The notes below the pieces were generated by a model. It was given only the letters and a program-made list of their open reading frames with translations. It ran no database searches and was not told where the DNA came from. A stretch of 64,000 nucleotides of DNA. It comes from Methylotenera sp. Its GTDB lineage: Bacteria; Pseudomonadota; Gammaproteobacteria; Burkholderiales; Methylophilaceae. The stretch covers positions 1-64,000 of the forward strand of contig JADGRO010000012.1 in NCBI GenBank assembly GCA_017880905.1, given 5' to 3'. Shown piece by piece: positions 6,121-29,193 of this stretch (position 1 is the first letter of the stretch; the number at the start of each line of letters is the position of its first letter). The position numbers and the translations under genes were made by a program.

Positions 6121-6936
6121 ATGAAGACACCCTCAACCAATACAAATGAACTGTTCCAAGCGCGCTGGTACTGGCGCGAGCTCATTATTTGTAATCTGTT
6201 AGCGGTGTTAATACTTGCAAGCTGGCTGTGGCAACCAACAAGGCAGTTATGGGATGCGTTTGATTTACGACTGTTTCATTGGTTAAACGCACCACTTGCC
6301 ACGCATCCGATTTGGGCGAGAATTTGGGCGATTGGCAATATGCGCCCTATTGATGTAACTGTTGGCTTGATTATGCTCGTAACTATCATTAAAAGTAACT
6401 GGGTTTTTAGCGGCACGCAAGTGCGCCGCGCGTTTTACGCTTTTTTTGCACTGTTACTGCTGTTGTTGTTCATCCGCATCGTATTATTTGATGAAATACT
6501 AAAATTGATGCATTGGCAGAGATCAAGCCCGTCTCTAGTTGTTGAAGGTGCTGTGCGGCTAACGTCATTGTTCCCAGGTTGGGAGCAAAAATGGTACCTA
6601 AAAGATAGTTCCAAACAATGCTTTCCGGGCGACCATGCCTCGGTTTTATTTATTTGGACAGCAATGCTGCTATTTTTTGCGCGTGGCAAGGCATTGTTCT
6701 TTGTTTGGCTACTCACCATTTTATACTTGTTGCCAAGGCTCATTGCTGGCGCGCATTGGGGATCGGACGTGTTTGTAGGTGGAGCGTTTCTTAGTTTGCT
6801 TGCCTTTAGTTGGGGCTTTTACACACCTTATGCCGCCAAATCACAAGATTTGTTAGAGCGTTTAACCGCGCCCATCATACAACCTTTGGCAAAGCTACCC
6901 TTTCTGCGCAATATCAGTTTTATTTCCGGGCGTTAA
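6121..6936 (+). CDS. PAP2-superfamily membrane phosphatase
   Basis: A 271-residue PAP2-type integral membrane acid phosphatase with about six hydrophobic segments. Motif 2 is F-P-G-D-H-A-S (around residue 168), carrying the catalytic His. Motif 3 is P-R-L-I-A-G-A-H-W-G-S-D-V, with the nucleophilic His and its partner Asp; the Arg of the usual S-R pair is kept and the Ser is Pro. Motif 1 is not clear. Family members dephosphorylate undecaprenyl pyrophosphate, lipid A 1-phosphate or phosphatidylglycerol phosphate on the periplasmic side. Next to GT9, PMT and a flippase-like gene, recycling of a lipid carrier or editing of lipid A phosphate is likely. Its 3' end overlaps the convergent EamA-type gene by 17 bp. 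Confidence 0.85.
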   Translation: MKTPSTNTNELFQARWYWRELIICNLLAVLILASWLWQPTRQLWDAFDLRLFHWLNAPLATHPIWARIWAIGNMRPIDVTVGLIMLVTIIKSNWVFSGTQVRRAFYAFFALLLLLLFIRIVLFDEILKLMHWQRSSPSLVVEGAVRLTSLFPGWEQKWYLKDSSKQCFPGDHASVLFIWTAMLLFFARGKALFFVWLLTILYLLPRLIAGAHWGSDVFVGGAFLSLLAFSWGFYTPYAAKSQDLLERLTAPIIQPLAKLPFLRNISFISGR

Positions 6937-7354
6937 GGGTTATATCACTGGCACGGGGATGCGCATCATCTGAGATGACAAAAACTCCTGCGACAATAAA
7001 AACGATCCCCACCAATTGATACCAATGTAGCGGTTCGTTCAAAAACAAGGTAGCGCTTAGCGGAATGGTTACATACACCAGCGATGTCATGGGGTGGGCA
7101 AAGCTCAAATCTACTTTTGAAATGAGTTTGAGCCAAATAAAAAGCGCAAAAATAAGTGTAATCACTCCACAAATGACATATGGATTAACCGCCAACTGCA
7201 AGCAGTAACGCCAAATGCCGCTTATATTTTGCGTAGTAAACTCACCCAAATGCGTAACCGCAATTTTGAATGCCAGTTGTGCGAACGTATCAAATAACAA
7301 TAATAATGCAATCAAAACAATAACTTGTATGTTTACTAATTTTGAAAATTGCAT
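6920..7354 (-). CDS. Half-size EamA/SMR-type four-helix membrane protein (ArnF-like)
   Basis: A 144-residue protein with four hydrophobic helices, the size of one EamA repeat. Helix 3/4 carries the L-S-F-A-H-P-M-T-S-L-V-Y and L-N-E-P-L-H-W-Y-Q-L-V-G-I segments typical of the drug/metabolite transporter superfamily. Half-size members work as dimers; ArnE/ArnF form a heterodimer that flips undecaprenyl-phosphate-aminoarabinose. It is the last gene of the nine-gene minus-strand run and follows the FemAB-like gene by 17 bp. A second half-size protein is encoded in the same run at 10981-11367, so the two may pair. The cargo is unknown. Confidence 0.8.
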   Translation of the reverse strand: MQFSKLVNIQVIVLIALLLLFDTFAQLAFKIAVTHLGEFTTQNISGIWRYCLQLAVNPYVICGVITLIFALFIWLKLISKVDLSFAHPMTSLVYVTIPLSATLFLNEPLHWYQLVGIVFIVAGVFVISDDAHPRASDITLNARK

Positions 7355-7371: not shown

Positions 7372-8523
7372 TTACTTTATTTTCACTGACGTGTCAAAAT
7401 TGCCGTAAGCCAACATTTTTGCAGCAAGTTTTAATAAAGGGTTAACGTAGCGATTACGATGTTTAAACAAAATATGTGTTTGCTCTAAGCTTGCGCCTAA
7501 ACTCAATTTAGTTTTATAAGCAGCTTGCCCGCTTTGTAGTGTATGGAAGCCATCGCGGATGCACATATGAATATTGTGAAGCCAGCTTAACGAATACAAA
7601 TTAACTTGGTGACTAAACGAATAATCTAGGCCAATATATTTATCCACCAATACGCCGTTTCCATGCAGTAAGCAATTGAATCCAATTAGTTTATCTTGCA
7701 TAAAATAGAGCACAAAACGACATTGATTTGGCATTAATTCGGCTAAAGATTTAAAAAAATCCAAAGTAAGTTTTTCAAATTTGAGCTTACTTTTTTCATA
7801 ACAATTTAAGTATAGTTGGTATATTTCTTCAAGATGTGGCGGCAAACCATCATACTCTTCAATACGAAGTTGACTATATCGTCTGAGTTTGCGACGCAAA
7901 CCTTTGCGCGTGCTGTAACTCAAACTAGCAAAATAGGCATCTAAATTTTTAAAATGAATTGCATTTTTCGCAACTGGCATATTCTCTACGCTGCTAAAAC
8001 CATGGTTTGAAAAAAGTGTTTGTAATCTTGCTACATCACTTGTTAATATATCCTTGAAAGCTAGCACATTAGCGCCTTCCAGCTGAGCTACTTCCTCTAA
8101 TTTTTCATATAACCGTGCAATTATCTCAGCATCAAGTGCTGAATCTTTTAAAAAACCTATCTGTGCAGAATCAGTAACTGGGGAACCTACACATAGCAAG
8201 CGTAAAGTCATTAAATTTGGCAGCACTTTATTAAGTAAGCTGGTAAAAACTTTCATACGACCTTGTACCAGAGTGTCTAAGGCATAATCAGTGATGAAGA
8301 TGGGCGCGATGAGTACCACTGTTCCTGCAGTGGAAATCGTTATGTAGCCCGTCTTAAAGCCTTCCACGTGGCCTAAATCAAACGCCAAATGGTAGTGGTA
8401 ACCTTCTAGAGATTGCGGTAATAGGCGTTGCCAAACAGATTCATCGTGTTGAGTTGCCGCATAGGTAAAATGCGCTTGAAAGCGGGATGGTTGTATCTGA
8501 TCGTGCGGAATAGCAAGCTCCAT
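7372..8523 (-). CDS. FemAB/GNAT-like acyl- or aminoacyl-transferase
   Basis: A 383-residue soluble protein resembling the two-GNAT-fold FemAB/BioF2-like acetyltransferases. The second half shows the usual pattern: K-G-L-R-R-K-L-R-R near residue 208, then a core strand C-R-F-V-L-Y-F-M-Q-D-K-L-I-G-F-N, then Y-K-T-K-L-S-L-G near the C-terminus, where FemAB-like proteins have a conserved K-x-x-x-G. It starts at ATG 8523, which overlaps the ketoacyl synthase stop by one base (TAATG), so translation is coupled. With an acyl carrier protein and an aminotransferase in the same operon, an N-acyl transfer from acyl-ACP to an amine is a reasonable hypothesis. The sequence alone does not prove it. Confidence 0.7.
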   Translation of the reverse strand: MELAIPHDQIQPSRFQAHFTYAATQHDESVWQRLLPQSLEGYHYHLAFDLGHVEGFKTGYITISTAGTVVLIAPIFITDYALDTLVQGRMKVFTSLLNKVLPNLMTLRLLCVGSPVTDSAQIGFLKDSALDAEIIARLYEKLEEVAQLEGANVLAFKDILTSDVARLQTLFSNHGFSSVENMPVAKNAIHFKNLDAYFASLSYSTRKGLRRKLRRYSQLRIEEYDGLPPHLEEIYQLYLNCYEKSKLKFEKLTLDFFKSLAELMPNQCRFVLYFMQDKLIGFNCLLHGNGVLVDKYIGLDYSFSHQVNLYSLSWLHNIHMCIRDGFHTLQSGQAAYKTKLSLGASLEQTHILFKHRNRYVNPLLKLAAKMLAYGNFDTSVKIK

Positions 8524-9776
8524 TAACTATTTACTTTTTTTAAAATTAGTGCAGCGCCTGTCCCACCAAATGCAAACGAATTCGTCATGACATATTCAAG
8601 CTTGGGTAAAACTTTAGCTTTATTGGGCACATAGTCAAGATCGCACGCCGCATCTGGCTGTTTAAGATTAATCGTTGGCGGCAAAGTATTGGCATTCAAA
8701 GCAAGCACAGTGATTACTGTCTCTAACGCACCAGCAGCACCCATCAAATGACCATGCATAGACTTGGTAGAACTCACGCTTAAATGATAGGCATGATCGC
8801 CGAATACTTTTTTAATTGCATTGGTTTCCGTAATATCATTAAGTTGCGTACCAGTGCCGTGCGCGTTGATATACTGAATGGCATTTGGCGGCAGGTTTGC
8901 ATCTGTCAGCGCAGCTTGTATAGTCGCCGCCTGGCCATTGACCGACGGTTGCGTAATATGGCCACTATCGTTTGCAGAGCCATAACCCGCAATCTCTGCC
9001 AAAATAGTTGCTCCGCGGGCTGTTGCATGCTCATAAGATTCTAATACTAGCATAGCAGCGCCCTCACCTAACACTAAACCGGTGCGGTCAGCCGAAAATG
9101 GTTTGCATGAGCGACTGGCGTTTTCGATATCTTCATCAGCCAATGTTCTTAGGGCTTCCCATGCTTTAATTGTTCCGAAAGTTAAAAGCGCTTCTGCTCC
9201 TCCTGCTAGCATTACGTCTGTATAACCATGCTGTATCAACCTAGCCGCTTCGCCTATCGCTACCGCTGAAGATGAACAAGCGGTAGAAAAAGTTTGGTTT
9301 GGCCCTATGAGTTTATACTCCAGCGCAATCGCCGAGGCAGCCGCATTGTTCATCCCCATCAGTACGGTAAATGGTTTAAGACGACTTGCCCCATCCTTAT
9401 AAAGCCGAACGTAACCTTCTTCAATCGAATGTGAACTACCCATACCAGTACCGAAATAAATGCCCATACGGGGTTTGAGTGTATCATTTATTGTTAAACC
9501 TGCATTCTTAACCGCCTCAATACTAGTATGCAAACCTAATTGGCTTGTGCGGTCAAGCATTGAGTACGCGTGCTTTGTAAAGTGCTGTGCTGGATCAAAT
9601 TGTGATTGGGCCGCAATTTTGCAATCGAGTTGATCAACAAACGAAGCATCAAGACGCTTGATGCCAGAAACGCCCCGAAATGCTTGTTCGCTTAGTGCAG
9701 GCAGTCCATTGCCGATAGGTGAAACCACGCCCATGCCAGTAATGACGACACGGTGACGCTGGCTCATACTGCGCAT
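8523..9776 (-). CDS. Beta-ketoacyl-ACP synthase, FabF type
   Basis: A 417-residue condensing enzyme of full FabF length with the complete triad: Cys167 in T-A-C-S-S-S, His306 in N-A-H-G-T-G-T, and His343 in the K-S-M-H-G-H-L-M-G segment. It performs Claisen condensation of malonyl-ACP with an acyl primer. The position between a dedicated acyl carrier protein and a FemAB-like transferase, without local ketoreductase or dehydratase genes, points to a specialised synthase that borrows housekeeping FabG/FabZ or leaves the keto group in place. Starts at ATG 9776 (MRSMSQ) or the internal ATG three codons later are both possible. This is a second-copy enzyme outside any fab cluster. Confidence 0.9.
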   Translation of the reverse strand: MRSMSQRHRVVITGMGVVSPIGNGLPALSEQAFRGVSGIKRLDASFVDQLDCKIAAQSQFDPAQHFTKHAYSMLDRTSQLGLHTSIEAVKNAGLTINDTLKPRMGIYFGTGMGSSHSIEEGYVRLYKDGASRLKPFTVLMGMNNAAASAIALEYKLIGPNQTFSTACSSSAVAIGEAARLIQHGYTDVMLAGGAEALLTFGTIKAWEALRTLADEDIENASRSCKPFSADRTGLVLGEGAAMLVLESYEHATARGATILAEIAGYGSANDSGHITQPSVNGQAATIQAALTDANLPPNAIQYINAHGTGTQLNDITETNAIKKVFGDHAYHLSVSSTKSMHGHLMGAAGALETVITVLALNANTLPPTINLKQPDAACDLDYVPNKAKVLPKLEYVMTNSFAFGGTGAALILKKVNS

Positions 9777-9792
9777 TATTGTTGCTACCGTC

Positions 9793-10050
9793 TTAAGAAC
9801 TTTGGGCGACGATGAGTTTATGCACCAGTGCAGTTACATCTTGTAGCGTCTCAATTTGCACTTGATCGTTTGGCACTTTGATTTTAAAGTGGTCTTCCGC
9901 GTTGAAAATTAAATCAAAAGTATCAAGCGAATCTAAGCCCAATTCGGTTAAATTACTTTCCGCAGTAATCGTATTAACGTCGATTTCCATTTTATCAGCA
10001 ATCATTTTTGCTAACACTTTTGAAATTTCATCTAAGCTGGGTACTGACAT
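9793..10050 (-). CDS. Acyl carrier protein
   Basis: An 85-residue acidic four-helix carrier protein. Ser41 in G-L-D-S-L-D is the 4'-phosphopantetheine attachment site. A good ribosome binding site (AAGGA) lies 8 nt before ATG 10050. The sequence differs from housekeeping AcpP (L-I-F-N-A-E-D-H-F in helix II), which indicates a dedicated carrier for the pathway. The ketoacyl synthase gene follows after 16 bp and the hydrolase gene precedes it by 16 bp. Its partners are probably the ketoacyl synthase, the FemAB-like transferase and perhaps the desaturases encoded upstream. Confidence 0.93.
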   Translation of the reverse strand: MSVPSLDEISKVLAKMIADKMEIDVNTITAESNLTELGLDSLDTFDLIFNAEDHFKIKVPNDQVQIETLQDVTALVHKLIVAQSS

Positions 10051-10066
10051 TAGTTAAATCCTTATG

Positions 10067-10984
10067 CTAATGGGCTGGCACAACATCTACCAACGCCAGT
10101 TTGTGTACTTGCTCTTTGCAAAAACGTGCGGTACGTTTCGCCACATCGTCTTTGCGCTTATCTAGAGTAAGCACGTGATAGGTGTCGTCCACAAAAAAAG
10201 TTTCTACGATTTTTGATGCGATATTAGCTTGAGTATAATGCGCATTTTTTAAACTCGCCATATCGTCTTCAGTAGAGTGTACGATTAAAGTTGGTGAAAC
10301 TACTTCTTTTAGCGATTTTTTGGTTGCCTTAATCATGCGCACACTTTCTAAAATCACTGTGGCTGGTGTTTTAAAATAGCCTATTTTATCGGCCGCCTGA
10401 TTATCCCGATTCTCTAAAATAGCATGCACCAAAGCACGCGTACGCTCATCTTTAATGCCATACGGTGCAGTTTCTTCCCATTGCAAAAAGTATTTTAAAG
10501 GGGAGTAGAGTACTATGGGCAACAAAACTTTTCGCTTGAACTTTGATACGTTCCAGCCATCATAAAAAAATGTAGTGGAAAGTAAAATAACGCCTGCGAC
10601 TTGGTTTTTTCTTTTTGCTGCTACCAATAGAGCAATTAGTGCCCCCATAGAAAGTCCAGCAATAAACACATGCTCGCATTCTTCTTTTAGCGCGTCAAAC
10701 GCTACTTCAATAGATTTGTACCAATCAAGCCATTTGGTCTTGGTTAAGGCTTCAATAGTAGAGCAATGTCCTGCCATCTCGGGACATGCGACTGTGAAAC
10801 CTTGTCTAGCAATCACTTTGCCAAACTGTTTCATTTCTGTTGGTGTACCGGTTAAGCCATGAATCAGTAACACCCCCACTTTACCTTTGCGTTCGATGAA
10901 CCCAACTGATCCTAACAGTACATCCATTTTATTTTGCGGCTTTTCTGTCACTTCAGCTTCTTTCATTTGTATATGTTGTTTCAT
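10067..10984 (-). CDS. Alpha/beta hydrolase (carboxylesterase/thioesterase-like)
   Basis: A 305-residue alpha/beta-hydrolase of the serine aminopeptidase/monoacylglycerol lipase (Hydrolase_4) type. The oxyanion segment is H-G-L-T-G near residue 42, the nucleophile is Ser112 in G-L-S-M-G, the acid is in S-T-E-D-D near residue 240, and the catalytic His is in D-T-Y-H-V near residue 268. There is no signal peptide, so it is cytoplasmic. It starts inside the end of the half-EamA gene (ATGA overlap at 10984-10981) and precedes the ACP gene. In an acyl-ACP pathway it could release or hydrolyse acyl chains. An editing thioesterase is the simplest guess. Confidence 0.85.
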   Translation of the reverse strand: MKQHIQMKEAEVTEKPQNKMDVLLGSVGFIERKGKVGVLLIHGLTGTPTEMKQFGKVIARQGFTVACPEMAGHCSTIEALTKTKWLDWYKSIEVAFDALKEECEHVFIAGLSMGALIALLVAAKRKNQVAGVILLSTTFFYDGWNVSKFKRKVLLPIVLYSPLKYFLQWEETAPYGIKDERTRALVHAILENRDNQAADKIGYFKTPATVILESVRMIKATKKSLKEVVSPTLIVHSTEDDMASLKNAHYTQANIASKIVETFFVDDTYHVLTLDKRKDDVAKRTARFCKEQVHKLALVDVVPAH

Positions 10985-11367
10985 GCGTAGTCGCCACCCA
11001 CAAAAATCATTCCCGTGATGATGAGTGTCACGCCTAGCCAGCGCTTGCTGCTGACGTGTTCTTTTAAAAACCAGGCTGAGGCCAGTAATATAAAAATATT
11101 ACTAGCACTAGAAAGCGGCGCAGCAATATTAAGTGGTGTAATCGACAAAAAAGCCAGCCAAACAATGGCCTCAAGCACCACCGCAATCCCACCCATGGTA
11201 ATGTCTTTAGAAGATAAAGCTCGTTTACAGTTCGCCCAATACCCCCCCCAGCCTGGCAAAGGTGATGCGGCAAAGTTATTCATGCCTTTTTTAAATAAGA
11301 TATTACCTAGCGTATCAAGCACCATTGCAATACCAAACAAACTAACTGATTTTAAACTTAGTAACAT
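10981..11367 (-). CDS. Half-size EamA/SMR-type four-helix membrane protein (ArnE-like)
   Basis: A 128-residue protein with four hydrophobic helices. It has G-N-I-L-F-K-K-G-M in helix 1, where SMR/ArnE proteins have a similar K-x-G motif, and W-F-L-K-E-H-V-S-S-K-R-W-L-G-V between helices 3 and 4. It matches the size of ArnF and is clearly not a full ten-helix EamA transporter. Stop and start codons overlap the hydrolase gene downstream (ATGA), and the arginase-fold gene ends 2 bp before its start, so it is firmly within the operon. It is probably the partner of the second half-EamA protein at the operon's end. Confidence 0.8.
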   Translation of the reverse strand: MLLSLKSVSLFGIAMVLDTLGNILFKKGMNNFAASPLPGWGGYWANCKRALSSKDITMGGIAVVLEAIVWLAFLSITPLNIAAPLSSASNIFILLASAWFLKEHVSSKRWLGVTLIITGMIFVGGDYA

Positions 11368-11369: not shown

Positions 11370-12248
11370 TTAGCTAAATCCCAGAGAATTTGCTAATTTT
11401 GAATTGGCTATGCTATTGATTTCACTTGCTTTTTTATGAGAGTTCATGCATAAAGCATTCGCAGGGCGATCTAAAAATGAACCTATCCATTTTAGCGGTG
11501 AATTAAATAGTGGCGGCGAGTAGTCCCCCACCGAGTCAGCGCCCACAATCACATGCACTTCTCTAATTGATTGAATACAGGCCAGTACTGTTTCCAAAGG
11601 CAGTGTGCCTTGTTCCCAATTGGTGACAGCATCTTGGCTACGCAGACAGTCTTTATCTACGCTTATGTAGACTCTCTCGGTAGGAATCGCTTCCAAAATT
11701 TCTTGAACTCCCGCCTTTAAGCTCTGTTTTAGCTTAGATTCGAGGCGTATGGATTGCTGCTGAATTTTTGCTTCTACCAAAGTATAAGGCAACAGCACAA
11801 TTTTTTTATTTTCGTAGCTTTCAACATCGCCACTATTAAACTTTTTTCCCGCTAAATCGCCATTCTCTAGCCCAACTATCACAATACGCTCCACTTGTGG
11901 TAGACGTGCCGCTGCGTATACCCAAGTGCCACAATGGTATTTGTGTGGAGGGGGCATCCAATCTGGATGATTATCAAACAATACCAGTGTAAGCGGGGTT
12001 TGGTGTTGCTCAAGCAGCGCAAGCGTTAAATGATGAAAATCACCAGACCCTAACAAAGTAAATTGGCTCTTATCTTGTAATTGCATCGCCGCACTGATTT
12101 TTTTATAGCATTGTGGACTACACCACAAGCGGATTGCACGTTGAAAAGGCATCATTGATTTGACTGTAAGTTTAGCGCGAAATTGCTGCAAAAAATCGGC
12201 TTGTGCAGTCACACTTTTATCAAAATCGAATACGGTAATACCGTTCAT
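11370..12248 (-). CDS. Arginase/ureohydrolase-fold protein, divergent
   Basis: A 292-residue protein in which all six manganese ligands of the arginase/agmatinase superfamily can be placed: D70-x-H72 in G-S-G-D-F-H-H, D92-x-H94-x-D96 in L-F-D-N-H-P-D-W, and D198-x-D200 in S-V-D-K-D-C. The classic D-P after the last motif is missing and overall similarity to real arginases is low, so the substrate is probably not arginine. Family enzymes hydrolyse a guanidino, formimidoyl or amide C-N bond. The gene lies 8 bp after the class III aminotransferase gene. Together they suggest handling of an amine or guanidine head group. Confidence 0.7.
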   Translation of the reverse strand: MNGITVFDFDKSVTAQADFLQQFRAKLTVKSMMPFQRAIRLWCSPQCYKKISAAMQLQDKSQFTLLGSGDFHHLTLALLEQHQTPLTLVLFDNHPDWMPPPHKYHCGTWVYAAARLPQVERIVIVGLENGDLAGKKFNSGDVESYENKKIVLLPYTLVEAKIQQQSIRLESKLKQSLKAGVQEILEAIPTERVYISVDKDCLRSQDAVTNWEQGTLPLETVLACIQSIREVHVIVGADSVGDYSPPLFNSPLKWIGSFLDRPANALCMNSHKKASEINSIANSKLANSLGFS

Positions 12249-12256: not shown

Positions 12257-13630
12257 TTAGTGTGCACCACAGCGTTTTAGCAGGGCCTCAAATAAACGAA
12301 TGCCTAAATCGATTTCTTCATTGGTAATCAACAATGAAGGCGCCAATGTAATCACATTTTTTTGGTAACCGCCGATGTCTAATACCAAGCCATACATTTT
12401 GCCATCGATGTCGATGTCACCTTTCAAGCCCTCGTTAAACATGCGATCTGCCAATACACGGCTTGGCGTGTAGCCATCTTCGGTGCAAAGCTCAATACGC
12501 AAAGCTAGCCCTAAGCCGCTCACATCGCCAACCACTTTCCAACGTGATTTCAGTTCTTGAATGCGTTTTAAAAAGTAAGCGCCGCGTTCACGAATTTGAG
12601 GTTCAAAATCATGCTCTTGCGTCATTTTCATGACTTCAAGCGCCACCGACGTGCCAAGTGGGTTAGAGGCAAACGTCGAATGCGTAGTGCCTGGCGGGAA
12701 TTTCTCAGGATTAATATATTCTTCTTTCGCCCAGATACCGGATAGTGGATTTAGCCCATTAGTAATGGCTTTGCCGAATACGAATATATCCGGCACGATG
12801 CCAAAATTCTCCCATGACCACAATTTACCAGTGCGATAAACGCCCATTTGAATTTCATCAGCCACCAGCAGAATATTGCGTTTTTTGAGACTGGCTTGTA
12901 GCTTTTGCATATAGCCTTCAGGCGGAATAATGTAGCCACCTGTACCTTGTACCGGCTCAATGTAAAACGCGCCGAATTCGCTCTCTTTGGCTTTTTCATC
13001 CCAAACCGATTGGTATTCAGTCTCGAATAATTTTTCAAATTCTTTGTGGCAATACGTGTCACAAGTCTCTACTTTCATGTCGTACGGACAGCGGAAGCAA
13101 TATGGATAAGGTACAAAATGTGCGCGGTCAGCAAAGTTACCAAAACGACGACGATAGCGGTAGCTGGAAGTGATGGCAGAAGCACCTAGAGTACGGCCAT
13201 GGTAGCCGCCCATAAAGGCAAATTGATGTGTTTTACCCGTGTGGTTACGCACAACTTTAAGTGAATCTTCTACCGCTTGCGCTCCACCTACATTAAAGTG
13301 TACACGGCCTTTTTCGCCATATTTGTCTTCCATGTATTTGCAGATAATCTCGGCTAAATCAACTTTTTCTTTGTGTAAATATTGGCTGGCAAGCTGTGGC
13401 AATGTATCTACTTGTCTATGTAGCGCGTCATTTAAGCGTTTGTTTTTATAACCAAAATTGACGGCTGAATACCACATTTGCCAGTCCAAATACGGTGTGT
13501 TGTTTTCATCAAACAAAAAACTGCCTTGGCAATTTTCAAATACTTTGGGCGGATCTGCATAATTTACCGTATCGCCATGTGAGCAATATTTGTTGTTTTT
13601 ATCTAAAATTTCGATGATTTTGGTATCCAT
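12257..13630 (-). CDS. Class III PLP-dependent aminotransferase
   Basis: A 457-residue fold-type I aminotransferase of the ornithine/4-aminobutyrate/diaminobutyrate group. The PLP lysine is Lys287 in F-G-K-A-I-T-N-G. The cofactor-binding Asp258 lies in V-A-D-E-I-Q, and the phosphate-binding G-G-A-Q-A-V is near residue 115. A four-cysteine pattern, C178-x2-C181-x8-C190-x3-C194, could hold a metal and also occurs in some relatives. The enzyme moves an amino group between an omega-amine and a keto acid or aldehyde. It is the second gene of the nine-gene run, 61 bp after the HAD phosphatase gene. Housekeeping argD or gabT is unlikely in this context. Confidence 0.88.
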   Translation of the reverse strand: MDTKIIEILDKNNKYCSHGDTVNYADPPKVFENCQGSFLFDENNTPYLDWQMWYSAVNFGYKNKRLNDALHRQVDTLPQLASQYLHKEKVDLAEIICKYMEDKYGEKGRVHFNVGGAQAVEDSLKVVRNHTGKTHQFAFMGGYHGRTLGASAITSSYRYRRRFGNFADRAHFVPYPYCFRCPYDMKVETCDTYCHKEFEKLFETEYQSVWDEKAKESEFGAFYIEPVQGTGGYIIPPEGYMQKLQASLKKRNILLVADEIQMGVYRTGKLWSWENFGIVPDIFVFGKAITNGLNPLSGIWAKEEYINPEKFPPGTTHSTFASNPLGTSVALEVMKMTQEHDFEPQIRERGAYFLKRIQELKSRWKVVGDVSGLGLALRIELCTEDGYTPSRVLADRMFNEGLKGDIDIDGKMYGLVLDIGGYQKNVITLAPSLLITNEEIDLGIRLFEALLKRCGAH

Positions 13631-13691
13631 GCAACAACCTTTTACTAATTAATGAACGAATAGCTTGTAGCTTGACTTGCTAGAATTGAAC

Positions 13692-14363
13692 TTAGGCAAG
13701 TAGGCTCGCGCTTTTTTGTGGTGCTTTCTGTGGCCAAGCTTTCACTTTGGCTAAAACGTCGGCAAATGTTTGAAATTTGTGATGAGGGATATTATTTTTT
13801 TCGCAATGCTTAATTAGCGAACCTTTAGCGAACACAACATCGGCACGGCCGGCAAGACAAGCATCCGATTTGCCATCGCCAATCAATACTACAGGACCAC
13901 CTGACTCCAAAGAAAGGTTGCGGGCAACGGCGCATTTGCACGTGCCGTTACCACCATCGCAACCATTTACAAGGTTGGGAAATGTAATATCAATGCCATC
14001 TGGCACAAAATGCAAATGGTTGGCATACACGGGAATATCTGGCATGGCGGCGTTACGCATCGCCACTTTAACCGAGTGATCTAAGCCATCACTTACAATC
14101 GCTACTTTGGCAAATTGGCTAATGTGTTTATAAAAAGGCAAAAAGGTAGCGTCTAACTGAATGCCACGAAAGAAGCCCTCAAGCGTAATGTTGTCGGCTT
14201 TCACCATACGAATTTGCTGAGTCATACATTCAACAGCAGTAATGTCGCCATTTAGCCAAGATTTTTCTGCATCTTCCCAGCTTGGGTCGGCGAAATGCTC
14301 AAGCATGTCGTCTATGGTATCTTTTACTGAAAGTGTACCGTCAAAATCAATAATAAAAAGCAT
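13692..14363 (-). CDS. HAD-family phosphatase (MtnX/PSP-like)
   Basis: A 223-residue haloacid-dehalogenase phosphatase. Motif I is D6-F-D8-G-T-L with nucleophile and acid, motif II is V-S-D-G, and motif III is I-G-D-G-K-S-D. A cysteine-rich insert (N-G-C-D-G-G-N-G-T-C-K-C) follows the cap region and resembles MtnX-like and phosphoserine-phosphatase-like members. It is first in the nine-gene run and lies directly downstream of the conserved direct-repeat regulatory site, with a leader of about 38 nt and a G-A-G-G-A ribosome binding site. It would release phosphate from a small phospho-intermediate, perhaps a phospho-amine or phospho-alcohol in the proposed lipid pathway. Confidence 0.85.
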   Translation of the reverse strand: MLFIIDFDGTLSVKDTIDDMLEHFADPSWEDAEKSWLNGDITAVECMTQQIRMVKADNITLEGFFRGIQLDATFLPFYKHISQFAKVAIVSDGLDHSVKVAMRNAAMPDIPVYANHLHFVPDGIDITFPNLVNGCDGGNGTCKCAVARNLSLESGGPVVLIGDGKSDACLAGRADVVFAKGSLIKHCEKNNIPHHKFQTFADVLAKVKAWPQKAPQKSASLLA

Positions 14364-14407: not shown

Positions 14408-14441
14408 ATTTTAATGAATCTTGCCTTACAATTTGCTTACG
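14408..14441 (-). promoter_or_regulatory. Response-regulator box and -10 of the nine-gene operon
   Basis: Read on the minus strand, a direct repeat CGTAAG-N5-TGTAAG (14441-14425, period 11 bp) is followed after 11 bp by the -10 TAAAAT (14413-14408). The repeat covers the -35 region and no separate -35 hexamer is visible, as in promoters activated by OmpR-type regulators. The same 18 bases with the same spacing stand before the desaturase genes at 16285-16301. The predicted start is near 14401, giving a 38-nt leader for the HAD gene. Confidence 0.75.
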
Positions 14442-14462
14442 TTGTTCGAGATAAAACCAAAT

Positions 14463-15323
14463 TCAATGCTCCAAAAAACCCAGCGCATGCGGCCATTTGA
14501 TGACATGAACACCGGCAGCCTTTTGTTGCGCTGCAATTTGGTCATGTAGCTCACGCATTTTGCTCCAATGATGTTTTGGCCGGTAATGGTGTTCCGCGTG
14601 ATAGCCATTATTAAACCAAGTAACGTTATATAGCCAGTTATAGCTGCTCACGCCCCACGCAATTGGCACATTGGGGTTGGAACCGTAATGCTCGTAAAAA
14701 CCATTGAGCGAAGAAAGACAGTTACCAAGATAATAAAATGGAATCATAAAGAGCATAAATTTCCAGTTTAGTATGAAGCCAACAATTACCATCGCAATAA
14801 CACAAATAATTTCAAACACGCCAAACCAGGCCAAGCTTGGACTGCGACGTCTAATTTCTTTAAAAATTACCGCCGGGTCATCTCTAAAAAAACTTTTAAA
14901 GGTATAAGCCCACACATTTTCTGGCTGCCCATTTTTTCCATACCGATAGATAGAAAGCCAATCGACTGTGTCACCCTTTTCATCTGGTAAATCGCTATTT
15001 CCTGTGTGATGGCGGCGATGTACGTTATCGTAGAAAGTCTGTGAAAACACCATGGTAAGCGATTGCATAAAACTAAAGGTTCGGTTTAAAAAGCGTGATT
15101 TAAAATAAACATTGTGAATAAAAAAGTGCGCCACGCTATTGATGTTCCAAGAAATACTCACTGCATAAATAAGACCTAGGATGATATTGGCCCACCACGG
15201 TAACGAGGGGAAAAGTACGAACATCGTTATCAGGTAGCAAAAATGCGCGACACCAGCCAATGCTGGCAATATATCCCAGTAAGAATGCGCGAATATCAAA
15301 CGTTTAGATTTTTCATTAGCCAT
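14463..15323 (-). CDS. Membrane fatty acid desaturase (copy 1)
   Basis: A 286-residue membrane di-iron desaturase/hydroxylase with hydrophobic segments and three histidine clusters: H66-F-F-I-H70, H102-R-R-H-H106, and Y-H-A-E-H-H near residue 250. These eight or more His residues hold the di-iron centre. Copy 2 lies 10 bp upstream and is close in length and sequence (shared N-I-N-S-V-x-H, D-D-P near the middle, N-G-Y-H-A-E-H-H-Y-R-P), so the pair arose by tandem duplication. The substrate could be a phospholipid acyl chain or the acyl group on the dedicated ACP. It is under the shared response-regulator site upstream of copy 2. Confidence 0.88.
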   Translation of the reverse strand: MANEKSKRLIFAHSYWDILPALAGVAHFCYLITMFVLFPSLPWWANIILGLIYAVSISWNINSVAHFFIHNVYFKSRFLNRTFSFMQSLTMVFSQTFYDNVHRRHHTGNSDLPDEKGDTVDWLSIYRYGKNGQPENVWAYTFKSFFRDDPAVIFKEIRRRSPSLAWFGVFEIICVIAMVIVGFILNWKFMLFMIPFYYLGNCLSSLNGFYEHYGSNPNVPIAWGVSSYNWLYNVTWFNNGYHAEHHYRPKHHWSKMRELHDQIAAQQKAAGVHVIKWPHALGFLEH

Positions 15324-15333
15324 CTTTTATTTT

Positions 15334-16188
15334 TCATCTTGCTAGAAACCCAATTTGATGTGGCCACGCAATCACTCGCACACCCTCTATACGCTGTTTA
15401 TCTGCAATCTCTAAGTGCAGCTCATGCATTTTTGTCCAATGTTGTTTGGGTCGATAGTGATGCTCGGCATGGTAACCATTATTCAACCAGAGCCAATTAA
15501 ATAACGGGTTGTAGCAGCTTACGCCCCAAGCAATAGGTTTATCCGGATTTGCCCCAAGGTGCTCGTAATAACCATTCATGGCAGTAAGCGAATGGCCAAG
15601 ATAGTGAAAGCACACAAAAAATAGGCCTAATTTCCAATTGAGTAAAAATAAGGCAATAAACATCAGCACTACCAGTGCTAATTCAAATAAAGAGAAATTA
15701 GCCAAAAATGGATCTAAGCGCTTGATGCCTTGATATATGCGTTTTGGATCATCGCGAAAAAAACTCAGGAAGGTGTATTTGAGCGCGGGTTCAGGTTCGC
15801 CATTTTTACCGTGCTGATAAATTGAAATCCAATCGACGGTTGCGCCGTTTTCACCTATACGATCATTATTGCCTATGTGGTGTTGGCGGTGCACGTGGTC
15901 ATACATAGTTTGCGAAAAACCCAATGTGATAGACTCTAATAAGCTAAAACAGCGATTTAAAATGTTCGATTGAAAGTAAGCGTTATGTATAAAATTGTGC
16001 GATACGCTATTAATGTTCCAAGAGATACTAAAGGCGTAAAACAGGCCAGTCATCGCATTCGCCCACCAAGGCAAGTACGCAAACGCTACCAGCATACATA
16101 ACAAATAGCCAAAGTGCATTATTCCCAACAACACTGGGATAGCATCCCAATAACTATAAGCAAAAAATCGAAGGTTATTTTTTTTCAT
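15334..16188 (-). CDS. Membrane fatty acid desaturase (copy 2)
   Basis: A 284-residue paralogue of the neighbouring desaturase, with all three histidine clusters intact: H64-N-F-I-H68, H100-R-Q-H-H104, and Y-H-A-E-H-H near residue 251. Four or more membrane segments are visible. It is the first gene of a two-gene transcription unit, with a leader of about 70 nt after a perfect TATAAT and the direct-repeat site. The two copies differ enough (about half the positions by eye) to have different regiospecificity or substrates. Oxygen-dependent desaturation under a two-component system suggests membrane adaptation or tailoring of the special acyl chain. Confidence 0.88.
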   Translation of the reverse strand: MKKNNLRFFAYSYWDAIPVLLGIMHFGYLLCMLVAFAYLPWWANAMTGLFYAFSISWNINSVSHNFIHNAYFQSNILNRCFSLLESITLGFSQTMYDHVHRQHHIGNNDRIGENGATVDWISIYQHGKNGEPEPALKYTFLSFFRDDPKRIYQGIKRLDPFLANFSLFELALVVLMFIALFLLNWKLGLFFVCFHYLGHSLTAMNGYYEHLGANPDKPIAWGVSCYNPLFNWLWLNNGYHAEHHYRPKQHWTKMHELHLEIADKQRIEGVRVIAWPHQIGFLAR

Positions 16189-16250
16189 TTCCGCTTAATT
16201 TTGTTGCTTGATCATGATATACAGACTAAATTGCACACTAATAGTTTAAC

Positions 16251-16279
16251 TTGACAACATATAGTGAATTATAAGAATT
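16251..16279 (+). promoter_or_regulatory. Possible promoter of the two-component genes
   Basis: A perfect TTGACA at 16251-16256 is followed, 16-17 bp later, by a poor -10 (AAGAAT or AGAATT) on the plus strand. Transcription would begin at about 16285, inside the response-regulator box, so that regulator binding would repress its own gene. This is speculative, because only the -35 is good. Confidence 0.3.
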
Positions 16280-16301
16280 AACTCCTTACAATTTGCTTAC
16301 G
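16268..16301 (-). promoter_or_regulatory. Response-regulator box and -10 of the desaturase operon
   Basis: Read on the minus strand, CGTAAG-N5-TGTAAG (16301-16285) is followed after exactly 11 bp by a perfect -10 TATAAT (16273-16268). Eighteen bases are identical to the site at 14424-14441, while the DNA on either side differs. The half-site period of 11 bp, one helical turn, is the pattern bound head-to-tail by OmpR/PhoB-type regulators. The regulator gene starts 26 bp away on the opposite strand. Confidence 0.8.
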
Positions 16302-17006: not shown

Positions 17007-18398
17007 ATGCAAAAAAAACAAGCGTCCTTAAGAAAGAAATTGCTGAGTTGGCTAGTGCCGCTATTGCTAATATTGATTGTGATTGATAGTGCAATACTAC
17101 ATGATCTCGCCATTAATAAGCTAGGAAATGAATTAGATGCTGACTTATATAGCTCTGCAGCTGAGATGTCGAACTATTTAGTAACTGCAGGGGAAAATGC
17201 CAGTCATTTAACCCTACTAGAAAACGTCAGCAAAGCATTACTTAGCAATGAGTCTGATAAGGTGATTTACAGCATTACCGATGAACATGGCCTATTTATT
17301 AGTGGGAATAAGCAGTTAGCTAAAAAAACTCAACCGCAAACCATGAATATTCAACCTCACTTCTTTTTTATTGATTTGGATGGCACTAAGTATAGGATTG
17401 TCAGCGCTGCGTTTAAAATTGCCACTGCAAATGGACCGCGGTTATTTACTATTCAAATTGCAGCTACCCTAAATCATCGTAATCAGCTTGCTAATACTAT
17501 TTTGCTCGGCATTGTGGTGCCCCAGCTGTTGCTGGCATTACTGTCATTTTTGATTATCTGGTTTGGAGTTAAAAAAGGTTTGGCTCCCTTAGATGCCTTG
17601 CAAGATGCAGTTTCAAAGCGTTCCGAGCAAGATTTAAGCCCTATTGAATTACCCAATATTCCACAAGAAGTTTCACTAGTGGCTAATGCTGTCAACCAGC
17701 TTATGCAAAAATTGCAAAACTTAATCTCTGCGCAAAATCGATTTATTGCGGATGCAGCACATCAACTAAGAACGCCGCTAGCAGGCGCGCAGGCGCAGTT
17801 AGAGCTCGCTGAACTTGAAACTGATCCAGCTACTTTCAAATCGATGTTGCCACGCGCACATCAAAGTTTGGATAAACTTTTACATACCATTAACCAACTA
17901 CTAGTTTTGGCACGCAGTCAACCAGAGGCTGCAGCAAGTTTAGAAATGGTTAATGTTGACTTGAATGTTATTGTGAAAGAAATGGCTTTAGAAATGGTAC
18001 CGACCGCCATTAAAAAAGGTGTCGATTTAGGCTTTGAACCTAGCTTAGTGCCTGCACAAATAGCTGGAAATGTAGAACGCTTAAATGACATGCTGGCAAA
18101 CTTGATTGATAACGCAATTCGCTATACACCAGCGGGTGGAACTGTCACAGTATCTTTGGATGTATCTGAAACTTTGGTGAGTTTAATTGTGGAGGACGAC
18201 GGGCCTGGAGTAAATGATTTAGAAAAAGATAAAATTTTCGACCGATTTCACCGCGTTGTGGGTATGGAGCAAGAAGGTAGTGGTCTCGGACTAGCTATTG
18301 TGAAAGAAATCGCCACTTTGCATGCTGCAACAATTTCATTAGCTGACATAAAAAATAAACGTGGCTTAAGGGTGATGGTTAATTTTAAGCGCATTTAA
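17007..18398 (+). CDS. Sensor histidine kinase (QseC/TctE-like)
   Basis: A 463-residue membrane kinase from ATG 17007; an upstream TTG at 16968 is in frame but lies inside the regulator gene. TM1 is at about 12-33 and TM2 at about 165-190, with a periplasmic 2CSK_N-type sensor domain of about 130 residues between them and a HAMP-like linker after TM2. The H-box is A-A-H-Q-L-R-T-P-L-A-G, the N-box N-L-I-D-N-A-I-R-Y-T-P, G1 is E-D-D-G-P-G-V and G2 is G-S-G-L-G-L-A-I-V. All residues for autophosphorylation are present. The signal is unknown. QseC/PmrB-type sensors detect envelope cations or peptides and TctE types detect carboxylates. Confidence 0.92.
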   Translation: MQKKQASLRKKLLSWLVPLLLILIVIDSAILHDLAINKLGNELDADLYSSAAEMSNYLVTAGENASHLTLLENVSKALLSNESDKVIYSITDEHGLFISGNKQLAKKTQPQTMNIQPHFFFIDLDGTKYRIVSAAFKIATANGPRLFTIQIAATLNHRNQLANTILLGIVVPQLLLALLSFLIIWFGVKKGLAPLDALQDAVSKRSEQDLSPIELPNIPQEVSLVANAVNQLMQKLQNLISAQNRFIADAAHQLRTPLAGAQAQLELAELETDPATFKSMLPRAHQSLDKLLHTINQLLVLARSQPEAAASLEMVNVDLNVIVKEMALEMVPTAIKKGVDLGFEPSLVPAQIAGNVERLNDMLANLIDNAIRYTPAGGTVTVSLDVSETLVSLIVEDDGPGVNDLEKDKIFDRFHRVVGMEQEGSGLGLAIVKEIATLHAATISLADIKNKRGLRVMVNFKRI

Positions 18399-18486: not shown

Positions 18487-20280
18487 TCAAGGATTTAGCT
18501 TATAAACTAATACAGCATCACCTTGTTTGTAGCCAAAAATTGAGTTACCGCCACTTGCCACAGCGATGAATTGCACGCCCTCTATTGTGTAGGTAATCGG
18601 CGGCGCATTCACACCAAATTCTGATTTAGTTTGCCATAACAGCTCGCCCGTTTGGCTGTTATAAGCGTTAAAGTTGCCACTACCCTCGCCCATAAACACC
18701 AGCCCACCGGCAGTTGCCAGCACACCGCCAATTAAAGGTTGTGCGGTTTTATCTTGCCATACGATTTTGCCTGTACTTAAATCAATCGCCGAGAGCAAAC
18801 CCCAACGCTCATCGCTAGTAGGTTCGCTGGCCGCATATCTAATTGCAGGAGTCCCATCTTTTGCGGGTGTTTCATGCAGCGTATATTTAATCGGCGAGTG
18901 AATGCCTGCCACAAAAACGCGCTGATTCGCTTCATCTACGCTCACAGGCGACCAATTCGAGCCACCCAAAATGCCCGGATACACCACTGTGCCTTCAAAC
19001 GTGGCTTTTTTGAACATATTCAGCTGTGGCACAAATGCATCGGATTTCTTCAGCAATTTGCCCGTTGTCCTATTATGCACATAAAACCAGCCGGTTTTAC
19101 TGGCTTGTCCCACAGCAGCAATGATTTTGCCGTTTTGCTTATAATTAAACAACACGGGCGGACTGGCTAAATCGTATCCCCACAAGTCGTGCGGCACTTG
19201 CTGATAATGCCATTTGAGCTTGCCTGTATTCACATCTAACGCCACCAACGAAACTGTGTAGAGGTTGTCGCCTGGCCGCGAAATATCGTTCATCTGCGGC
19301 GATGGGTTCCCCGTACCAAAATACAGTGTATCAGTTGCCGTATCAATTGCGGGGGTGCTCCAAGCCGAGCCACCGCCAAAACGTGCCGCATCAGGATATT
19401 TGGCCAAGTCCGATTTCTCAGCTGCCACATCACGATTAAAGGTGGCGCCATCCTCAGTTGCCTCGGCAAACTTGCCTTCCCAGCCTTTATCTGGAATCGT
19501 ATCAAATTGCCAAACGCGCTTGCCGCTATTCACATCATAGGCTGCCAAGAATCCGGGGCGACCATAACGTCCTGCAACACCAATTACCGCGCCCAGTGGC
19601 GCATCTGCGGTTGGGTTATCAATATGTAAACCATAGCCCACGCCAGTAATGCCCACAATCACCTTGCTCTTATACACCACGGGCGCCATGGCGATGCCAA
19701 TACCAGTGCCACCAGTAACTTTACGGGCAGAATTCGGATCATTTTTATCCAACGAATCTTGATCTTCAGTGCTAATAGCTGCTTCCACCACGTCAATGTC
19801 CCACTCTTTTGCACCAGTTTTAGCATTAAGCGCAATTAAACGCGCATCTACCGTGCCAATAAACACGCGACCTCCAGCCACTGCTACGCCCCTATTGGCA
19901 GGGCCGCAGCACATTTGCCAGTCTTTTCGCCTATCGTGGTTGTAACGCCACAGCTCTTTGCCTGTTTTTGCATCCAAAGCGACCACATGGTTAAATGGCA
20001 AGGACAAATACATCACGCCATCTTGCACGATTGGTGTGGTTTGGAAGCTCGCCGTGACGCCGCTTTTATATTGCCAAGCCTGCACTAAGTCTTTTACGTT
20101 ATTTGTGTTAATTTGTGTAGATGGCGAAAAGCGCTGACTGGTGTAATCACGCCCAAAACTAGGCCAGTCTTGCGTTTGAGATACATTTGGCTTGGTACTT
20201 TGAGCACAGGCGAAAAGCAAACCTGCAGTAGCAATTAAAATACTTTTTGCTAAAAAATTCAGATTAAAATAACGTTTCAT
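18487..20280 (-). CDS. PQQ-dependent dehydrogenase-like lipoprotein with altered active site
   Basis: A beta-propeller quinoprotein of about 597 residues. ATG 20280 is chosen because the signal peptide then ends in the lipobox L-F-A-C25; an in-frame start 75 bp upstream would bury it. Methanol/ethanol dehydrogenase-like features are the vicinal cysteines C124-C125, tryptophan-docking repeats (A-L-D-A-K-T-G-K-E-L-W, A-L-D-V-N-T-G-K-L-K-W) and G-T-G-N-P followed by R-P-G-D-N. In methanol dehydrogenases the catalytic base is the Asp of W-D-Y; here the motif is W367-G-Y-D370, so the base is Gly while an Asp is kept two residues on. It is membrane-anchored in the periplasm or outer membrane. It could be an alcohol or sugar dehydrogenase with shifted chemistry, or a non-catalytic relative. 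Confidence 0.8.
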   Translation of the reverse strand: MKRYFNLNFLAKSILIATAGLLFACAQSTKPNVSQTQDWPSFGRDYTSQRFSPSTQINTNNVKDLVQAWQYKSGVTASFQTTPIVQDGVMYLSLPFNHVVALDAKTGKELWRYNHDRRKDWQMCCGPANRGVAVAGGRVFIGTVDARLIALNAKTGAKEWDIDVVEAAISTEDQDSLDKNDPNSARKVTGGTGIGIAMAPVVYKSKVIVGITGVGYGLHIDNPTADAPLGAVIGVAGRYGRPGFLAAYDVNSGKRVWQFDTIPDKGWEGKFAEATEDGATFNRDVAAEKSDLAKYPDAARFGGGSAWSTPAIDTATDTLYFGTGNPSPQMNDISRPGDNLYTVSLVALDVNTGKLKWHYQQVPHDLWGYDLASPPVLFNYKQNGKIIAAVGQASKTGWFYVHNRTTGKLLKKSDAFVPQLNMFKKATFEGTVVYPGILGGSNWSPVSVDEANQRVFVAGIHSPIKYTLHETPAKDGTPAIRYAASEPTSDERWGLLSAIDLSTGKIVWQDKTAQPLIGGVLATAGGLVFMGEGSGNFNAYNSQTGELLWQTKSEFGVNAPPITYTIEGVQFIAVASGGNSIFGYKQGDAVLVYKLNP

Positions 20281-20305
20281 GCTGTGTTCCAATAATTTTT
20301 TTAAT

Positions 20306-20311
20306 AGTATA
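20306..20311 (-). promoter_or_regulatory. Possible -10 box of the quinoprotein gene
   Basis: TATACT on the minus strand, 25 bp before ATG 20280, lies in an AT-rich stretch of alternating GTATAC/GTATAT/GTGTAC words. No clear -35 is visible. Confidence 0.25.
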
Positions 20312-20419
20312 CAGGTAAGTATATAGTTAGTGTACTTAGCTCCCAAGCCTGACAATTATTTTAAATTGAAATACTGAAATTAAGCCATACTACCAATTCA
20401 AAAATAAATACCAATTAAT

Positions 20420-27497: not shown

Positions 27498-28442
27498 TTA
27501 TGTGTTAATAAATTGATTTATTTCATTAAATACTAAATTGTTAAGTTCAGGATTTAAGCAATCTATCTCTATCGTATCATCCATGCCACGCAGCCAAGTA
27601 AGCTGACGTTTAGCAAGCTGTCGTGTGGCAAAAATGCCTCTATCGCGCAATTCGGCTTTATCATAATTCCCTGCAAGATGTTCCAGTGCTTGCCTATAGC
27701 CCACGCAGCGCATGGATGTTGATTCTGACGTGAGTGATGGGTATTTTGTTTTGAGTGCCCTCACCTCATCCACAAAACCATCGCGTAACATCTGCTCAAA
27801 CCTTAGTGCAATGCGCTCATGCAGCACTTTGCGGTCACTCGGTACAAGAGCGATTTTAAGCAAATTGTAAGGTAAAGTTTCGCTGGTTTGCTTTTTAAAT
27901 AAGCTAGACATGGTTTCGCCGGTAATTGCATGTACTTCCAACGCACGCTGTATGCGCTGTGTATCGTTAGGCTGTAATCGCGCTGCAGTTGCCGGGTCAA
28001 TGCTTGCAAGCTTGCTGTGCATGGCTGGCCAGCCTATTTGCGCAGCCTCTGCGTCGAGTTTGGCACGTATCGCAGGTTTGGCTTCAGGCAAACCACTTAA
28101 ACCACCCTGAAGCGCCTTAAAATACAACATGGTACCGCCCACCAATAAGGGAATTTTGCCGCGCGCGCTAATGTCTGCCATCAGTCGCAAAGCATCACTT
28201 CTAAAATTCGCTACAGAATAAGCTTCAGTCGGTGGAATAATATCAATCAAATGATGCGGTGCTTTTGCCAGCGTTGCAGCATCTGGTTTAGCCGTACCAA
28301 TGTTCATGTCTTTAAATACCAGCGCAGAATCAACGCTGATGATTTCAACTGGAAGCTTTGAATACAAGTGAACCGCCGCGCCAGTCTTGCCACTGGCGGT
28401 TGGACCCATGAGGAAGATTGCTTTGGGCAAACAATTAACCAT
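27498..28442 (-). CDS. miaA: tRNA dimethylallyltransferase MiaA
   Basis: A 314-residue enzyme from ATG 28442 (an in-frame start nine codons upstream would lie deeper in the previous gene). The P-loop is M-G-P-T-A-S-G-K-T-G near residue 15, then I-S-V-D-S-A-L-V-F-K-D and G-T-A-K-P. I-P-L-L-V-G-G-T-M-L-Y-F-K and Q-L-A-K-R-Q-L-T-W-L-R near the C-terminus are family signatures. It adds a dimethylallyl group to A37 of tRNAs reading UNN codons. The start overlaps the stop of the abortive-infection gene by 8 bp. The usual neighbour mutL has been separated from it by that gene, and hfq is not present downstream. Confidence 0.93.
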   Translation of the reverse strand: MVNCLPKAIFLMGPTASGKTGAAVHLYSKLPVEIISVDSALVFKDMNIGTAKPDAATLAKAPHHLIDIIPPTEAYSVANFRSDALRLMADISARGKIPLLVGGTMLYFKALQGGLSGLPEAKPAIRAKLDAEAAQIGWPAMHSKLASIDPATAARLQPNDTQRIQRALEVHAITGETMSSLFKKQTSETLPYNLLKIALVPSDRKVLHERIALRFEQMLRDGFVDEVRALKTKYPSLTSESTSMRCVGYRQALEHLAGNYDKAELRDRGIFATRQLAKRQLTWLRGMDDTIEIDCLNPELNNLVFNEINQFINT

Positions 28443-29193
28443 TAATATTTTTAAACTGCCAAGTTTCAATTAAAAATAGAGCAGTGGCTCCTGCAAGATT
28501 TACAGCTAATTGAGCATGTCTTTGAGCTGGGCGTATCTGTGCTTTACCTTTTCCATGAGCATCTCCCAATCTGTTTCTTAAAGCGCCAAGTCCATTAACT
28601 ACTGAAGCTACACCGCCAAGAATTTGCTTAAAAACTTCCGTGGTATGTTGACTGGGAGCGATATTTAGTTCTTTTGAGGTGAGTTTATATAAATCAGGTA
28701 ATTCAGTTTTATCCTTATCATAAACCACGTTGGAACTGTCTAAAATATGCTTACATACGCTTTCCATCAAGGTTCTCGCCATGGTTATAGCGCCCTCAGG
28801 GTCGGATTTCCGTCTTTCTAAAGCCTTTGCCCAAATTGCGTTAATTCCTTCTTCATCAAATGATTTCAAGCCATCTGATATTGTTGTATCTGAGGGTTTA
28901 TTATTTCTACCCTCCAATAAATCCATCAATGGAGAAAATTCAGTCCAAATAAAGTCTTTTCGTTCTGCATAATGTTTATATTTAAATTTTATAAATTGCC
29001 AAAATTGATCCAAGTCGCGGTTTGTACGGACAAAACTTGGAATGACGCCTGAATATTCAGCGTTATCAATAAAATATTTGCGGAGTAAAATGTAATCATT
29101 AAAGTTTCCAAGCCCACCAGTCGCTTGTGATATAAGCAAATTTTGGAGTCCTTGAGCTTTTTCAAAATCTGTTTTCAGTTCATTAAGAATCAT
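28435..29193 (-). CDS. Abortive-infection family protein with C-terminal HEPN-like RNase motif
   Basis: A 252-residue soluble protein that I recognise as an abortive-infection C-terminal domain (Abi_C) type protein. The N-terminal part, about 90 residues, is of unknown fold. The C-terminal helical domain has A-M-x-A-R-T-L-M-E-S-V-C-K-H-I-L near residue 140 and ends with R206-N-R208-L-G-D-A-H213, which fits the R-x4-6-H signature of HEPN ribonucleases. Such proteins cut RNA on phage infection and stop growth. Its ATG follows the mutL stop with no gap (TAG ATG) and its end overlaps miaA by 8 bp, so it rides in a housekeeping operon. No antitoxin gene is visible. Confidence 0.75.
   Translation of the reverse strand: MILNELKTDFEKAQGLQNLLISQATGGLGNFNDYILLRKYFIDNAEYSGVIPSFVRTNRDLDQFWQFIKFKYKHYAERKDFIWTEFSPLMDLLEGRNNKPSDTTISDGLKSFDEEGINAIWAKALERRKSDPEGAITMARTLMESVCKHILDSSNVVYDKDKTELPDLYKLTSKELNIAPSQHTTEVFKQILGGVASVVNGLGALRNRLGDAHGKGKAQIRPAQRHAQLAVNLAGATALFLIETWQFKNING

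Follow-up and report, generated by a model that had tools for sequence, protein, structure and literature searches.

PhoB and the other activators of the OmpR/PhoB family bind head to tail to direct repeats, and PhoB boxes replace the −35 element. BqsR of Pseudomonas aeruginosa responds to ferrous iron, and the sensor kinase PmrB carries a periplasmic ExxE iron-binding motif. The PmrA box has been given the consensus (C/T)TTAA(G/T)-N5-(C/T)TTAA(G/T) (PMC10729948, excerpt), and PmrA was described as occupying the half-sites CTTAAT and CCTAAG in head-to-tail fashion (PMC3973317, excerpt). BqsR recognizes TTAAG-N6-TTAAG, the downstream pentamer of which overlaps the −35 element at the bqs promoter (PMC4682146, excerpt).

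In a 64,000-nucleotide stretch of Methylotenera sp. DNA (the window), a first-pass annotation had spotted one direct repeat at two promoters flanking a pair of fatty acid desaturase genes. Our analysis suggests that both copies are most likely operators of the adjacent PmrA-like response regulator, and that the desaturase genes and a nine-gene run would form one regulon. The candidate operator pair is a PmrA/BqsR-type direct repeat with a changed half-site, one T being replaced by G. It shares with the PmrA (BasR) box, as found at the enterobacterial pbgP/arn promoters, the direct repeat of a hexamer, the N5 spacer and the 11-bp period, but the second base of each hexamer is G here, and the predicted targets belong to a lipid-type cluster rather than to the arn genes. 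The BqsR operator has the same pentamer direct repeat with N6 in the same arrangement, with TTAAG in place of GTAAG; binding by PhoB-type activators is likewise head to tail, whereas sequence and partner kinase differ. For two further related regulators, the QseB consensus and the RhpR inverted repeat GTATC-N6-GATAC both differ from the box (PMC10729948 and PMC4191427, excerpts). No description of the box in Methylophilaceae was found in the literature searched on this regulator family.

Architecture of the two candidate operator copies

Reading the window sequence verified two identical copies of the 18-mer CCTTACAATTTGCTTACG (Table 1). Read toward the minus-strand genes, each box is CGTAAG-N5-TGTAAG, two hexamers whose starts lie 11 bp apart in both copies, and the −10 element begins exactly 11 bases past the box in both, as the first-pass annotation had stated. 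The 11 bases separating box and −10 are unlike between the copies (GCAAGATTCAT vs GAGTTAATTCT), and the ATG of the regulator gene lies 26 bp from copy 2. Identity over the full 18 bp, on which the annotation had placed weight, holds for the two copies, but that of the 5-bp middle CAAAT is unnecessary: locus L020 has GAAAA and CAAAC there. Since the middle differs among relatives, its exact identity was rejected as evidence.

Table 1. Features of the candidate operators, the two-component system and the gene cluster (positions in the window).
Feature	Position	Strand	Basis or remark
Operator copy 1, CGTAAG-N5-TGTAAG plus one shared base	14424..14441	−	precedes HAD-to-ArnF run
−10 element TAAAAT, 11 bp from copy 1	14408..14413	−	sequence inspection
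Operator copy 2, same 18-mer	16284..16301	−	precedes desaturase pair; 26 bp from divergent regulator gene
−10 element TATAAT, 11 bp from copy 2	16268..16273	−	sequence inspection
Possible regulator-gene promoter TTGACA-N16-AAGAAT, 10/12	16251..16278	+	consensus match only; copy 2 just downstream
PmrA-like response regulator, receiver and winged helix	16328..16993	+	family scans, structure search
Sensor histidine kinase (2CSK_N, HisKA, HATPase)	17007..18398	+	family scans
Fatty acid desaturase 2, histidine boxes	15334..16188	−	family scan, motif check
Fatty acid desaturase 1, histidine boxes	14463..15323	−	family scan, motif check
HAD-IB phosphatase (MtnX-like; HAD), first of nine-gene run	13692..14363	−	family scans
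Class III aminotransferase-fold enzyme (AT3)	12257..13630	−	family scans, solved structures
Arginase/agmatinase-family protein	11370..12248	−	family scans
ArnE-like small EamA transporter	10981..11367	−	family scans
Alpha/beta hydrolase	10067..10984	−	family scan
Acyl carrier protein	9793..10050	−	family scans
FabF-like beta-ketoacyl-ACP synthase; ACSS, AHGT, GHLMG motifs present	8523..9776	−	family scans
FemAB-like / GNAT acyltransferase	7372..8523	−	family scan
ArnF-like small EamA transporter, last of run	6920..7354	−	family scans

The box has the geometry of the PmrA box, a hexamer direct repeat with 5 bp between, and the spacing of the BqsR operator, and it departs from both in the half-site: CGTAAG and TGTAAG lie outside (C/T)TTAA(G/T), and GTAAG-N6-GTAAG is not TTAAG-N6-TTAAG. 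On the half-site the relatives are uninformative, because their conserved sites were selected by GTAAG. As in sigma-70 promoters in which a box stands in for the −35 element, each place has a good −10, no recognizable −35 and the box at a held distance. This agrees with the earlier statement that the site covers the −35, as at OmpR/PhoB-type promoters: a conserved PmrA-type direct repeat appears to sit where the −35 would be.

A site in this position could also serve repression, with the regulator binding the box and competing with polymerase at promoters that are sufficient in themselves. Binding over the −35 region can block polymerase, and PmrA has been suggested to be able to do so at the arn promoter (PMC10729948, excerpt). 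We nevertheless consider repression unlikely. A promoter scan found at neither box a minus-strand promoter with a −35 hexamer of at least 4/6 matches at 16–18 bp spacing, so activation is the likely mode; the box-to-−10 distance is held at 10–11 bp in 33 of 38 conserved sites, as expected for activation; and at BqsR promoters of the same architecture, pentamer binding was critical for strong expression (PMC4682146, excerpt). For the divergent regulator gene itself, the upstream region holds three promoter-consensus matches, fewer than its shuffles (mean 5.9).

Rarity of the box in the genome

Rather than recurring at many unrelated loci, the 17-bp core of the repeat was found exactly just twice in the 1.93-Mb assembly, together with one two-mismatch and seven three-mismatch matches. 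The window itself contains the two exact copies and one two-mismatch match, against a mean of 0.48 core matches at up to three mismatches in shuffled windows. This near-match, at 27855, was rejected as a site because it falls within a coding ORF (27498-28469) and lacks a suitably placed −10. Elsewhere in the window, at 28435-29193, is an Abi_C (abortive-infection C-terminal domain) ORF, the listed frame of which overlaps a tRNA IPP-transferase ORF by a few codons.

The genome scan that the first-pass annotation had proposed, for the repeat followed at 11 bp by a −10, gave the same picture: GTAAG-N6-GTAAG-N11-TANNNT occurs exactly at these two places only in the 1.93-Mb assembly, with two further one-mismatch matches. 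At up to two mismatches the composite gave 47 matches in all, compared with 49 for the reversed control, so only exact composite matches are informative, and a wider regulon drawn from relaxed matches is not claimed. Allowing a 10-bp gap as well added three exact matches in the assembly, on contigs C13, C40 and C50. In addition, a matrix built from 17 HAD promoters of the 10-bp-gap type (excluding the window, L019-L023, L039-L050, L052 and L053) gave the two sites the top two scores in the window, 27.6 and 25.8 bits, with 16.1 bits for the third match.

Conservation of place, orientation and phase

The loci compared comprised 20 regulator loci from family genomes and at least 68 AT3 loci from named genomes; among the matches listed, the nearest named relatives of the cluster belong to Methylotenera and other Methylophilaceae. 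From the 68 named loci were omitted those without HAD or with AT3 at or below 70% (L080, L099, L101, L102, L104, L105, L106), those with too short an upstream (L062, L068, L082) and the duplicate L049; with the window and L025 this gave 59 distinct upstreams. Among these listed loci, exact GTAAG-N6-GTAAG stands forward before HAD in 35/59 and reverse in 1/59. In the pooled loci listed, with every upstream taken once by its last 120 bases, it is forward in 38/63, reverse in 2/63, and absent in 25/63; shuffled HAD upstreams gave a mean of 0.02 and a maximum of 1/63. The −10 pattern TANNNT follows at +10 or +11 in 33 of the 38 HAD sites (21 and 12, respectively), and any other offset is shared by at most four. 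In L061, L063, L191, L071 and L184 the HAD box lies 106–161 bp upstream and has no TANNNT at +10 or +11. About 60–85 bases before HAD in L052, GTAAG repeats with a 10-bp rather than 11-bp period precede TAGAAT, and no regulator of the corresponding genome, G027, exceeds 47%.

In the loci listed, no forward box was found before AT3 (0/64), the kinase gene (HK, 0/29), KASII (0/43), ABhyd (0/24), ACP (0/39, with three reverse), PMT (0/3) or GT9 (0/2). Upstream of the regulator gene the box is reverse in 19/33 and forward in 4/33, an excess expected if the divergent gene is the target. A desaturase gene is preceded by the box in six loci (12 of 18 rows, each site being found by two queries), and five loci, the window, L020, L025, L042 and L095, have both a desaturase and an HAD site. 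The desaturase promoter of L053/L019 contains no GTAAG repeats; in L053 (4510-4550) three repeats of GTTAAAT type recur there every 11 bp, perhaps a variant box.

On these data it is extremely improbable that the two copies arose by chance, or remain from a local duplication, and play no part in regulation. The two desaturase genes stand side by side, so that a nearby duplication may have happened. Strongly against this reading, the box is conserved before HAD in many genera at a frequency that shuffling does not approach, it also precedes single desaturase genes in L020 and L025, and the stretches that separate each copy from its −10 are unrelated in sequence. The same counts bear out the view of the first-pass annotation that identical site, phase and orientation are hard to obtain by chance.

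Co-occurrence of box, regulator and cluster

The box was compared with the adjacent regulator in 58 named loci, which include L049, whose upstream repeats that of L044. The exact box is present in all 24 named loci whose adjacent regulator shares at least 53% identity with that of the window, and in 10/34 of the others among the loci listed (Fisher 1e-8, uncorrected for relatedness). The latter split into 9/25 without a regulator within 6.5 kb and 1/9 with a 40–53% regulator, in which class the L071 regulator (52.x%, rounding to 53) was counted; four of these nine loci, of Methylopumilus type, have the box with one mismatch. The 24 named loci lacking the exact box comprise 16 with no regulator within 6.5 kb and eight with a 40–53% one. 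The 53% cut-off was chosen after viewing the list, the next best genomes standing at 51%.

At genome level, AT3 was present in all 28 of the 150 family genomes with a regulator of at least 53% identity and in 8/122 of the rest. Three of these eight (G032, G072, G097) have a linked 46% regulator, two (G027, G090) have only 46–47% regulators, and in the assemblies of G058, G067 and G103 no regulator above 37% was found; G058 and G067 keep the box. Regulator and AT3 co-occur even when they lie far apart (G047, G020) or on separate contigs (G035, G017, G076, G094), and in G047, G035 and G017 an exact box is directed at the regulator's own gene. They are linked in the cultured strain Novimethylophilus kurashikiensis La2-4 (L066).

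Three sets of 19, 20 and 18 genomes, hand-picked from the 150, were then searched for the box followed at 10 or 11 bp by TANNNT. All 19 genomes chosen for a close regulator contain the pattern, with 41 matches in total, some of them outside the cluster (control 0). Of the 20 genomes without one, 2 contain it, both times beside a paralogous regulator (control 1). In the third set, 12 genomes have it, with 25 matches against six for the reversed control, so single exact matches can be due to chance. In G087, G105 and G141, whose regulators are 53% identical, the matches are not at the cluster; each genome has one next to a 47% regulator. These results support that box, regulator and cluster travel together across the Methylophilaceae sampled, and they favor both the earlier linking of the two-component system to the cluster and, with a box before each, the grouping of desaturases and nine-gene run as one putative regulon.

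The PmrA-like two-component system

The regulator belongs to the OmpR/PhoB family, with Response_reg (90.3 bits) and Trans_reg_C (70.2 bits) both above cut-off. The PmrA equivalog NF007928 was the best of 93 families at 222.8 bits, below its cut-off of 330, and the QseB family model gave 191 bits against a cut-off of 345. For the kinase, PmrB NF008025 was the best of 73 families (193.1 bits, cut-off 314), and the translated frame has no ExxE motif in its first 200 residues; the ATG of the gene is at 17007, the listed ORF starts with TTG at 16968, and the scans run from 16998. The nearest solved structures to the regulator are those of Klebsiella pneumoniae PmrA/BasR (8JO2 and 4S04/4S05), PmrA being its closest solved relative.

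At the PmrA positions the window regulator has Ser187, Asn188, Val192, Tyr193, His195 and Arg196, that is, Tyr for His193 and Arg for Asn196 in the recognition helix. Among the regulators of the exact-box loci, Asn188, Val192 and Arg196 are invariant, and only L065/L187 deviate at position 195, with Phe instead of His. For PmrA, base contacts have been described for Thr187, Val192 and His195, with Asn188 and Asn196 reaching into the major groove (PMC4660055, excerpt). Another account equates Asn196 with PhoB Arg201, a guanine contact, and describes a PmrA model in which Asn196 is without DNA contact and His193 and His195 are the proposed specificity residues (PMC3973317, excerpt). By analogy with the PhoB Arg201–guanine contact, Arg at position 196 could reasonably account for the T-to-G change in the half-site.

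Weighing the paralogous regulator

The assembly also encodes a paralogous PmrA/QseB-like regulator (C13:22474-23130; the regulator tree is poorly rooted), and the box might be read mainly by this paralogue, or by both, with the cluster in a shared regulon. Its recognition helix, NALEVYLHRLRKK, is nearly the same as that of the adjacent regulator, and it has a GTAAG-N6-GTAAG box with a −10 of its own, the near end of which is 36 bp from its start, an arrangement also found in G101, G111, G121, G106, G022 and G050. In other genera, moreover, most cluster sites share the 10-bp gap of the paralogue's box (21/38 HAD sites). We regard this reading as improbable all the same. G022 and G050 have the paralogue and its box but neither a regulator of at least 53% identity nor AT3; the adjacent regulator tracks AT3 in all 28 genomes, unlinked cases included; and in the assembly of the window the gap is 11 bp at the two cluster sites, as against 10 bp at each of the remaining exact matches on C13, C40 and C50. 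As the half-site is common to both regulators, some cross-talk is possible.

The paralogue's box (C13:22406-22437) points away from the paralogue gene. The exact match on C40 overlaps a DUF4337 gene at its listed start, and that on C50 is 388 bp from a hexapeptide-repeat gene; since G101 likewise has a DUF4337 gene behind a box of this kind, the C13, C40 and C50 boxes may be the paralogue's regulon. In two genomes (L153:1991-2022, L156:1952-1983), exact 10-bp-gap boxes thus coincide with or closely precede DUF4337 genes, which are possible targets of the paralogue, and HHH protein genes follow 10-bp-gap boxes by about 130 bp in L165 and L158.

Proposed mechanism and gene cluster

Returning to the adjacent PmrA-like regulator as the preferred reader of the box, we propose that the kinase would phosphorylate it and that a dimer would bind both GTAAG half-sites head to tail, with the downstream half-site and the spacer in the place of the −35. 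The bound regulator would then recruit sigma-70 polymerase to promoters with a good −10 and no recognizable −35, one promoter driving desaturases 2 and 1 and the other the nine genes from HAD to ArnF. Copy 2 might conceivably also hold down the regulator's own divergent promoter. The desaturase and HAD units are probably the main regulon of the regulator in this genome.

Family scans, solved structures and the literature searched, at the level of titles and abstract openings, gave no named pathway for the cluster. The families encoded (ACP, ketosynthase, desaturase, acyltransferase, small Arn-like transporters) point to a lipid that is carried across the membrane, the product perhaps being an amine-bearing lipid. 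AT3 (window 12257-14363, with HAD) is 74–95% identical in most proteobacterial loci listed and 62–65% identical in L099 and L104, and in the Bathyarchaeota loci L101, L102 and L106 AT3 relatives of 52–54% identity adjoin a weak HAD match (27–32%). A PQQ-dependent methanol/ethanol-type dehydrogenase gene adjoins the two-component system (18487-20355), and in L020 a relative is found about 6 kb beyond the kinase gene.

Implications

The adjacent sensor–regulator pair very probably controls the uncharacterized lipid-type cluster. More tentatively, in many Methylophilaceae and some other Betaproteobacteria a PmrAB-like system might control, through GTAAG-N6-GTAAG, a complete amine-bearing-lipid pathway of building (ACP, ketosynthase, desaturases, aminotransferase fold), acylation (FemAB/GNAT) and flipping (ArnE/ArnF-like), in a role like that of enterobacterial aminoarabinose modification; we hold this to be rather doubtful. 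The T-to-G half-site together with Arg196 points to a possible specificity change inside the PmrA family. What began as a match spotted by eye is now a prediction open to test, one that names the regulator, the phase of its operator and a conserved set of targets. Given how seldom the box occurs in this genome, the PmrA-like system probably has a small regulon that lends itself to direct testing. The box would thereby offer a handle on when an uncharacterized, widely conserved lipid-type cluster is switched on.
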